A DNA stretch of 39,211 nt from Candidatus Bipolaricaulota bacterium (GTDB taxonomy: Bacteria; Bipolaricaulota; Bipolaricaulia; M55B111), in assembly GCA_018335015.1 (NCBI GenBank), contig JAGXKX010000008.1:1-39211 (forward strand). The letters are read 5' to 3'. Below the pieces are notes generated by a model. The model worked only from the letters and a program-made list of their open reading frames with translations. It was not told the DNA's origin and ran no database searches. Position numbers and translations under genes: made by a program. Of the stretch, positions 20,774 to 25,086 are shown piece after piece; the stretch's first letter is position 1; every line of letters begins with the position of its first letter.

Positions 20774-21380
20774 TCTTGATCACTTCCCTTATCGAATATA
20801 TGAGTTCGTTTACCCGGTCGAATTTGGTCTTCTGGGAAATCCTGTTGACCAGTAATAGAGCCGAACTTTCCAGGATGGTTTCTATTTCTTCCAGTCCGTT
20901 TGCGGTCAGCGTGTTTCCGGTCTGGACCACGTCGACTATCGCGTCCGCCATCCCCGCTCTGGGGGCGAGCTCGGTCGAACCTGCAACCACAATTATTTCG
21001 ACTGGTACTCCAAGGGAACGGAAGAATTCTCTGGTGATCGCGGGGTATTCCGTGGCAATCCTGTAGCCCTCCATTCCCTCTGGAGAGCTCGTTTCTTCCT
21101 CCGGGCGAGCTACACTGACACGGCAAACTCCGAACGGTAGGGAAAGAGGAATAAATACATCGGCTGACTTTTCTCGAACCATGTCCCTTCCGGTGACACC
21201 GACGTCGGCCCCTTCTTCTACGTAGGTCGGAACGTCGGCGGGTTTTGCCAGCAGGACCTCGTGGTCACCATTTGAGTGGATGAGCTCACGGTTTTCTTCG
21301 ATCGTTAGACTCGGGATGGCTTGGCGAAGTAATTCTATCGCGTCGTCCAGGAGTCTTCCCCTTGGAAGGACGAATTTCAT
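20763..21380 (-). CDS. hisG: ATP phosphoribosyltransferase catalytic subunit, short form
   Basis: VLPRGRLLDDAIELLRQA, ADVGVTGRDMV, ADAIVDVVQTGNTLTANGLEEIETI; 205 aa with adjacent hisZ. Confidence 0.93.
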   Translation of the reverse strand: MKFVLPRGRLLDDAIELLRQAIPSLTIEENRELIHSNGDHEVLLAKPADVPTYVEEGADVGVTGRDMVREKSADVFIPLSLPFGVCRVSVARPEEETSSPEGMEGYRIATEYPAITREFFRSLGVPVEIIVVAGSTELAPRAGMADAIVDVVQTGNTLTANGLEEIETILESSALLLVNRISQKTKFDRVNELIYSIREVIKNGT

Positions 21381-22267
21381 GATTTCACCTCGATCGTAAC
21401 TCCGTTTTCTACCCTGTCTCTAGCCCGACGGATCTTCTTTTTATTAGTTCCACCAAGTTTTTCCCTGTCTCTCCCCTCCAGGCCGGTAAAGACATCGAGT
21501 AGTGATTCGAGGTTGAAGGCGAAACCGCAGGCGTCAGCGTTCCGGAAGGTGTATTCTCCTCCGTAACCCAGTGGCGACCCGGTAGCCGGGGAATATAACT
21601 CGAAAGTTAGGTCCTCGTAATAATGCATCCCCCTGACAGTACCAAAATCCGCGAAGATCCGTTCGTCGTCGATGGTTTTCAGGATTTCATTTAGTCTGGT
21701 GTAGCTACATCTTTGGTCTCTGAAGTTGAATAGGCGCCAGACCTCGTCCTTTTTTTTCTCAGTTATATCCAGGTCATCAATTAGGTCGAAACTCCTGTGG
21801 TAAAGAGCTCTGAAAACTTCGTCTCGTAGATCGGGGAGGTCGCTGGTGGCTGACTCCCAGACCTGTTTGCTTCCGATATCAACATAGAAATCCTCTATAC
21901 CAAGTGACTCCAGTCCCGTGATGATCGAGCTGATAATCTCGAGTACCATCCAGCCTTTATCTCCGCCGATGTACTCAGCACCGAACTGCCAGTCACCGGA
22001 AGTCTCACCGTCCAGGACCTCGGAGATGTAGAACAGCTTCCGCTTTTTTTCGGCTGTCAACCTGGATAGGATCTGCGAGGTTATATCGGGTTTGATTAGA
22101 TAGAATTCGCGCCCATCCGTGAATTTAGTCCCTCTGTCGAGCTCCTCACCGGCTTCTTCGATGGCCGGTAGGAGTATTTCTCGGTAATTCCAGAGGTCGT
22201 AATTCTCCCTGAGCACTCTGGCTACTGTTGACAGACTTTTGGACTGATTTATCCAGTTTCCGTTCAT
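21377..22267 (-). CDS. hisZ: ATP phosphoribosyltransferase regulatory subunit
   Basis: Class II aaRS-like fold signatures (LWNYREILLPAIEE, FYLIKPDITSQILSRL, YYEDLTFELYSPATGSPLGYGGEY). ATG at 22267 preceded by GGAGGTAAAT. Confidence 0.85.
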   Translation of the reverse strand: MNGNWINQSKSLSTVARVLRENYDLWNYREILLPAIEEAGEELDRGTKFTDGREFYLIKPDITSQILSRLTAEKKRKLFYISEVLDGETSGDWQFGAEYIGGDKGWMVLEIISSIITGLESLGIEDFYVDIGSKQVWESATSDLPDLRDEVFRALYHRSFDLIDDLDITEKKKDEVWRLFNFRDQRCSYTRLNEILKTIDDERIFADFGTVRGMHYYEDLTFELYSPATGSPLGYGGEYTFRNADACGFAFNLESLLDVFTGLEGRDREKLGGTNKKKIRRARDRVENGVTIEVKS

Positions 22268-22283
22268 ATTTACCTCCGATTTC

Positions 22284-22311
22284 AAAAAGGACTCGGGACT
22301 TTTTGTCCTTT
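22284..22311 (-). terminator. Terminator/attenuator-like hairpin just before the hisZ Shine-Dalgarno
   Basis: Minus strand AAAGGAC-aaaaagtcccga-GTCCTTT followed by TT (7-bp stem 22305-22311/22286-22292, U5 run). GGAC-aaaaa-GTCC is a mutually exclusive alternative. Confidence 0.5.
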
Positions 22312-22387
22312 GTTAACCTTGTGTTTTTAAACGAGAAAAATTTAAGATGTATTTTAACTAAGTTGGATTCTAAAAAAGGTAGTTAGG

Positions 22388-22474
22388 TTAGGTGGTGGAG
22401 ATGGGGGAGCATCTCCAATGATGGTTGGCGTGCGTTACGGAAAGTTCTTTTAACTGAGGATTTGAGTATGACAT
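22388..22474 (-). CDS. Candidate his leader peptide MSYSNPQLKELSVTHANHHWRCSPISTT
   Basis: 28-codon ORF with three His in five codons, upstream of the his operon and downstream of a TTGACA-N17-TATCAT promoter. Not in the ORF track because it is short. Confidence 0.5.
   Translation of the reverse strand: MSYSNPQLKELSVTHANHHWRCSPISTT
22396..22417. promoter_or_regulatory. Perfect 8-bp hairpin within the his leader
   Basis: Plus strand TGGAGATG-ggggag-CATCTCCA; on the minus strand it directly follows the CAT CAT codons. Confidence 0.6.
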
Positions 22475-22482
22475 TTCAAAAT

Positions 22483-22511
22483 ATGATACTTAGTAACTCG
22501 TGGCATGTCAA
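22483..22511 (-). promoter_or_regulatory. Sigma70-type promoter for the his operon
   Basis: Minus strand TTGACA (22511-22506), 17 nt, TATCAT (22488-22483). Confidence 0.7.
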
Positions 22512-22603: not shown

Positions 22604-22627
22604 TTGGGTTTTTCATGTAAAACCCAA
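22604..22627. promoter_or_regulatory. Perfect 9-bp inverted repeat upstream of the ferritin-like gene
   Basis: TTGGGTTTT-tcatgt-AAAACCCAA. Operator or hairpin; role unknown. Confidence 0.4.
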
Positions 22628-22713
22628 ACTCATACAAGTTGGCTTATATCGAGAACATTGTCGAAAGAGAACACTGTAGAGACCAAATTCGAAAATAATA
22701 ACGGAGGTATATA

Positions 22714-24526: not shown

Positions 24527-24555
24527 TTGACAATATCACGCCTATAGAGTAAAAT
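24527..24555 (+). promoter_or_regulatory. Sigma70-type promoter for the ilv/leu operon
   Basis: TTGACA (24527-24532), exactly 17 nt, TAAAAT (24550-24555). Confidence 0.75.
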
Positions 24556-24577
24556 GCTTAAAATCCAAGGTGAAAAT

Positions 24578-24718
24578 ATGGAGTCAACAAAAAGTATTCT
24601 TTCCCCTAAAACTGCTTCTGGCGGCGTGAAAACTGGCTCCATTGCGGGTGTTTTCTCCTGCATATCAGTCGTTACCAGTTCTCTCCTGATCGCTCTCGTT
24701 GTTATTCTGCCCCTTTAG
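24578..24718 (+). CDS. Candidate BCAA-rich leader peptide (46 aa)
   Basis: MESTKSILSPKTASGGVKTGSIAGVFSCISVVTSSLLIALVVILPL*. AAGGTG 5 nt before the ATG; just downstream of the promoter; stop codon sits in TGCCCC-ttta-GGGGCA hairpin. Below the ORF-track length cutoff. Confidence 0.7.
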   Translation: MESTKSILSPKTASGGVKTGSIAGVFSCISVVTSSLLIALVVILPL

Positions 24719-24723
24719 GGGCA
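24708..24723 (+). promoter_or_regulatory. Hairpin overlapping the leader-peptide stop codon
   Basis: TGCCCC-TTTA-GGGGCA, 6-bp stem with 4-nt loop. Confidence 0.55.
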
Positions 24724-24819: not shown

Positions 24820-25086
24820 ATGACCCAAGAGGTAAGACAAGATCGAAAAAATATTGGTGAGCCAGGCAAAAGTACTACCATCACGGGACGTCGTTCTTGC
24901 CCCAGGTGTGGAGGAGAGATGACCACTACCCGTCAGGGAGTTGTTGCATCGTTTCCTTCTCCTGCTCTCGAACGGCTGGTGTGCTCGGACTCCGGCTGTA
25001 ATTACGCTAAATACGTAAAACTTGATTCGAACGGATTCTTCTCTGATGGGAGCCCGGCCGCCAGGAAAGGAGCCCAGGGTGCGTAG
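24820..25086 (+). CDS. Small zinc-ribbon-like protein, first structural gene of the ilv operon
   Basis: SCPRCGGEMTTTRQ...LVCSDSGCNYAKYVK (CxxC + CxxxxC). GGGAGG before the ATG; stop overlaps the ilvD GTG start (GTGCGTAG). Confidence 0.7.
   Translation: MTQEVRQDRKNIGEPGKSTTITGRRSCPRCGGEMTTTRQGVVASFPSPALERLVCSDSGCNYAKYVKLDSNGFFSDGSPAARKGAQGA

Follow-up and report, generated by a model that had tools for sequence, protein, structure and literature searches.

A probable ribosome-mediated histidine attenuator with an apparently leaderless leader peptide upstream of hisZ in Bipolaricaulota

Is the expression of the histidine operon of an uncultured Candidatus Bipolaricaulota bacterium set by translation of a short leader peptide, as an earlier note proposed when it read the region upstream of hisZ as an attenuation-like leader, and if so, by which output would the leader act on hisZ? 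In the 39,211-nt stretch of DNA analysed here (the window), the operon runs on the minus strand in the order hisZ-hisG-hisD-hisB-hisH-hisA-hisF-hisI (hisZGDBHAFI), and a rubrerythrin-like gene is divergent from it (start 22714). The sequence comparison presented below makes it very probable that the leader confers ribosome-mediated histidine attenuation on hisZGDBHAFI, with either a terminator or sequestration of the hisZ ribosome-binding site (RBS) as a possible output. For hisZ of the window, the best NCBIfam model was TIGR00443 hisZ (E 4.4e-25), yet the match stayed under the cut-off of the model. Five genomes represent the genus, and only three of them (G000, G001 and G002) have the his operon; HisZ is 80% identical in G002 (Candidatus Bipolaricaulota bacterium isolate GSL_GSL3510_5, the nearest named relative) and 71% identical in G001. 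The features of the leader and of its counterparts are collected in Table 1.

Table 1. Features of the his leader in the window and leader ORFs of related genomes.
Feature	Position	Strand	Description
-35 hexamer	22506..22511	-	TTGACA; TTGACA in G002 and TTGATT in G001, at equal spacing
-10 hexamer	22483..22488	-	TATCAT; spacer 17, 8 nt to ATG; TATTAT in G002 and TATTTT in G001, also 17 and 8
Leader ORF	22388..22474	-	MSYSNPQLKELSVTHANHHWRCSPISTT-stop; 28 codons plus stop, without Shine-Dalgarno (SD) sequence
Putative regulatory His codons 18-19	22418..22423	-	CAT CAT; at equal positions CAC CAT in G002 and CAT CAT CAT in G001
Hairpin 1	22396..22417	-	TGGAGATG-CTCCCC-CATCTCCA; within the ORF, directly 3′ of His codons 18-19
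Terminator-like/alternative hairpin	22286..22311	-	AAAGGAC/GTCCTTT plus T tract; present, weak
hisZ SD	22272..22277	-	GGAGGT; ATG at 22267
hisZ	21377..22267	-	ATP phosphoribosyltransferase regulatory subunit; heads the operon; PF13393 E 5.6e-26
Leader, G002			TTGACA-17-TATTAT-8-ATG, MSYENGQKKTVFSSSAKHHRRCSRHLHHLT-stop; homologous, 30 codons
Leader, G001			TTGATT-17-TATTTT-8-ATG, MNIFRKQSKSYFVTSNAHHHRGCLHHSPYLT-stop; homologous, 31 codons
Leader ORF, G025			MRSQMSSSLTNFFLSSLTAHHHPCHWVH-stop
Leader ORF, G028			MATLNVVNLCSGVLAAHHHSAYWLH-stop
Leader ORF, G049			MLQQNFCKDFIRGFSAHHHPVHHLH-stop
Leader ORF, G073			MCNQKLSSATNLFLSGLSAHHHPHHWVH-stop
Leader ORF, G077			MNNLTSMFLTSRVCVIDCCRLRVEVCNAHHHIA-stop; upstream of hisZ
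Leader ORF, G031			longer His-rich ORF, less clear

The leader ATG lies 207 nt upstream of hisZ, and histidine is encoded at codons 15, 18 and 19. The earlier note had described a 28-codon ORF containing HANHH, a TTGACA-N17-TATCAT promoter close to the ATG at 22474 and a perfect 8-bp hairpin right after the two CAT codons. All three were found as described, and both congeners retained the HH pair at codons 18-19, the 17- and 8-nt spacings of the promoter and the hairpin, so that promoter, 8 nt, ATG, His 18-19 and an immediately following hairpin form a layout common to the three species. Taken singly, the parts are unremarkable. The promoter matches at 11 of 12 hexamer positions, by itself within chance (one found versus 1.3 expected for the region); of 189 sampled upstream regions of the window genome, 5 contained an HH short ORF (the his leader counted), as did about 1% of the dinucleotide-shuffled versions of the his leader, and HHH short ORFs were found in 0/189 other upstream regions of that genome. 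It is the conservation in relatives that places the his leader clearly above chance.

We compared the congeneric leaders at the nucleotide level, where the genus-level features rest on three sequences only. Codons 4-17 were identical between the window and G002 at 21 of 42 positions (50%), and the promoter region of G001 did not align to that of the window. From the 3′ arm of the hairpin onward, 20 of 22 nt were identical between the window and G002 despite different reading frames, a sign that selection acts on this block as RNA. The frame shift of the last leader codons results from a single nucleotide in the hairpin loop, where a run of five C in the window (22402-22406, minus strand) is one base shorter than in G002; this difference is either real or an assembly error. 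Hairpin 1 had a predicted energy of -10.3 kcal/mol (z -3.6; 2/200 shuffles equally good), and 7 of its 8 pairs form in all three congeners, with one A-U pair in two species replaced by G-C in the third. Covariation in hairpin 1 did not exceed the shuffle control with these three sequences. The competing ccaa/ttgg pair amounts to only 4 bp.

The distance between promoter and ORF suggests how the leader peptide would be initiated. Between TATCAT and the ATG stand 8 nt (ATTTTGAA), and a transcript start 7 nt past the -10 hexamer would fall on an A that lies 2 nt 5′ of the ATG; promoter geometry thus predicts a start site that coincides with the start codon or lies 1-2 nt from it. No SD was found ahead of the leader ATG in the window, G002 or G001, and in none of them was there another in-frame ATG, GTG or TTG upstream of HH. 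A leaderless or nearly leaderless leader peptide is therefore the best reading, and because the geometry is kept in the three congeners, it is a conserved feature rather than an accident of the window. Additionally, we surveyed 1.03 Mb of the window genome for leaderless starts as a genome-wide norm, which the counts led us to reject. Among 551 candidate ATG starts, 243 had an SD-like sequence; TANNNT hexamers 7 nt before SD-less ATGs were in weak excess (14 versus about 8), and full promoter matches 6-8 nt before an ATG numbered 4 versus about 2 expected. Given these slight excesses, leaderless starts look like a minority in this genome.

HisG turned up in nine of the Bipolaricaulota genomes searched, the three congeners and six outside the genus, and a His-rich leader ORF preceded hisG or hisZ in 9/9 of them, less clearly in G031. 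The comparison of His codons across relatives suggested with the original reading thus came out in its favour. The leader ORFs of the six genomes outside the genus are preceded by SD-like sequences (GGGGTGAT, GGAGTGAT, GGGGAGGATC and GGGAGG). In G028 and G077, intrinsic-terminator-like hairpins with T tracts lie between the leader ORF and the first gene, an arrangement that resembles classical his attenuators. The region upstream of hisZ in G077 (L050) has the look of a textbook his attenuator, with HHH near the end of the ORF, a CGCCTAGAG/CTCTAGGC stem and a strong terminator, GGACCTC...GAGGTC-TTTCTCTTT.

The geometry of the promoter, the ORF, the His codons and hairpin 1 were directly seen, together with their conservation; from them we infer the start site, that the ribosome stalls and in which direction the operon responds. 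Transcription would begin at the leader ATG or no more than 1-2 nt from it, giving a (nearly) leaderless mRNA from which the peptide would be made. Under a shortage of charged tRNA-His, the ribosome would stall at His codons 18-19; if its footprint extends, as is usual, about 16 nt from the P-site codon, most of the hairpin-1 5′ arm would then be covered. When histidine is plentiful, the ribosome would proceed to the stop codon and cover the 3′ arm. The differing RNA folds would then set operon expression. Of the attenuation-like leader first proposed, the His leader peptide, the near-leaderless geometry and hairpin 1 are conserved, and the terminator and its GGAC/GTCC alternative are not. Against attenuation stand the weak, non-conserved terminator-like element, the lack of consistent derepression in the SD simulations, the 1-nt loop difference from G002 that alters the frame of the last codons, and the small genus-level sample.

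With the same His leader peptide, the output may be translational, the hisZ SD being sequestered and no termination taking place in the leader, a reading to which we give a little under an even chance. For the three leaders together, RNAalifold gave a consensus with hairpin 1 and, beside it, a stem covering the SD, but several pairs of that stem are disrupted in one species. In the helix list, the pairing partners of the hisZ SD were AUCUCC of the hairpin-1 3′ arm or local upstream pyrimidines; a complement to the SD, AUCUCC(A) or UGUCUCCA, occurs in the hairpin-1 region of all three congeners, and a local SD pairing, ACUUUUAG/CUGGAGGU, is common to G002 and G001. Against this, pyrimidine runs able to pair with an SD are frequent by chance. 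The lack of a conserved terminator in the genus also favours SD sequestration, as does G025, in which a stem of the 8-bp class lies over the hisG RBS.

We then folded the leaders state by state, without a ribosome, with a ribosome stalled at the His codons and with a ribosome at the stop codon. SD access in the window was 0.26, 0.12 and 0.67, respectively; in all states it was 0.02-0.03 in G002 and 0.11-0.14 in G001. The simulated folding of the three congeners gave no common derepression on stalling, and since the values differ among them, no common ON/OFF logic emerged. For SD sequestration this is unfavourable, as simulated stalling reduced SD access or left it unaltered, the wrong sign for expression induced by starvation.

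Alternatively, the same leader peptide could control termination of transcription at the hairpin 22311-22286, which appears doubtful. The earlier note had placed a U5 terminator at 22284-22311, and the hairpin is indeed there, a 7-bp stem with a T tract at the right place, but it is a weak candidate for a terminator. The predicted energy was low (-7.2 kcal/mol, z -1.3, 18/200 shuffles equally good), the loop is 12 nt long, the T tract lies partly within the stem, and a terminator scan allowing loops of up to 8 did not list the hairpin. Neither G001 nor G002 has a counterpart. Given the weak hairpin and its absence from both congeners, termination as the output is not supported, and the mutually exclusive GGAC/GTCC alternative proposed with it is likewise weak and absent from both. 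Points in favour of termination are the better terminators that two members of the phylum, G028 and G077, carry at the equivalent position, and the use of intrinsic terminators at some gene ends of the window genome (25/392 versus 5/1176 in shuffled sequence). Overall, SD sequestration stands slightly ahead of the terminator, and within the genus the switch may consist of sequestration of the hisZ SD.

It is unlikely, though consistent with recognisable intrinsic terminators at few gene ends of this genome and with an unstructured leader 3′ of the ORF that holds few conserved elements, that the output is Rho-dependent, the progress of the ribosome on the leader ORF deciding whether Rho catches RNA polymerase before hisZ. 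Finally, a chance ORF behind a promoter that is constitutive for hisZ or controlled by a DNA-binding repressor is very improbable: HH short ORFs in leader shuffles and the frequency of promoter-like sites would allow it, but the His codons stand at identical codon numbers in three species, His-rich leaders accompany HisG in all nine genomes, and no conserved operator-like palindrome overlapping the his promoter was found.

Attenuation through the leader peptide, the preferred reading, also has a more far-reaching version, which is speculative and, in its entirety, improbable. The his leader would be truly leaderless, the output would not be a terminator, and hairpin 1, besides being coding sequence, would act as an SD/anti-SD exchanger towards the hisZ RBS. 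The initiation mode of the sensor ORF would also have changed within the phylum, as the more distant relatives retain an SD on their leader ORFs.

We compared the leader with known systems. Neither the Rfam His_leader model (even at E 10) nor the T-box riboswitch model matched at gathering or permissive thresholds. The E. coli/Gammaproteobacteria his attenuator (hisL; Rfam His_leader) likewise precedes the his operon and has a leader peptide whose tandem His codons are followed at once by a hairpin; the leader in the window differs in its fewer consecutive His codons, its lack of an SD, of a conserved terminator and of an Rfam match, its phylum and its hisZ-first operon. His leader peptides are known in Gammaproteobacteria and several Firmicutes lineages, and the Firmicutes attenuators, which precede his operons and were derived by comparison, carry three to five His codons immediately 5′ of the attenuator structure (PMC9413887). 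Their predicted terminator and antiterminator hairpins are not conserved in the Bipolaricaulota genus, and Bipolaricaulota is not among the lineages in that study (PMC9413887).

Leaderless leader peptides, which the earlier note considered unusual, are uncommon but have published precedents: the attenuator peptides LeuL, TrpL and IlvL of Streptomyces lividans (PMC8079986), the ilvB leader peptide of Corynebacterium diphtheriae (PMC5784534) and TrpL of Sinorhizobium meliloti (PMC7298713). In these systems the transcript starts at the leader start codon, and some are without a typical terminator; they concern other amino acids and phyla, and their start sites were measured, unlike the one predicted here from promoter geometry. 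No report of attenuation in Bipolaricaulota was found in the non-subscription literature searched. The mechanism is thus known in kind, and both its occurrence in Bipolaricaulota and a leaderless his leader appear to be unreported. The present reading would extend ribosome-mediated histidine attenuation to Bipolaricaulota, in every HisG-bearing genome searched, and SD-bearing and leaderless sensing ORFs within one phylum would offer a natural comparison of how initiation mode affects attenuation.

The window also contains a second amino-acid leader, at 24527-24723 on the plus strand, before an 88-aa ORF and ilvD-ilvB, which is a probable branched-chain attenuator. It has a TTGACA-17-TAAAAT promoter, an SD-like AAGGTGA, a leader ORF at 24578-24718 (plus strand) ending in SLLIALVVILPL-stop, and a hairpin, TGCCCCTTTAGGGGCA, that includes the stop codon. 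G001 and G002 retain the LVVILPL-stop end, the hairpin and the AATWACTTCT that comes after it. The 88-aa ORF (24820-25086, plus strand), between this leader and ilvD, encodes two CxxC/CxxxxC-like pairs and also occurs in G001 and G002; Pfam and NCBIfam searches gave no match for it.

Ahead of the rubrerythrin-like gene, the divergent region (22604-22627 and 22651-22694) holds a palindrome with 12-nt arms, TTGGGTTTTTCA/TGTAAAACCCAA, together with a 16-nt direct repeat, GAGAACAYTGTMGARA, in three imperfect copies. Neither was seen by eye in the G002 sequence; in the window they form a possible operator.
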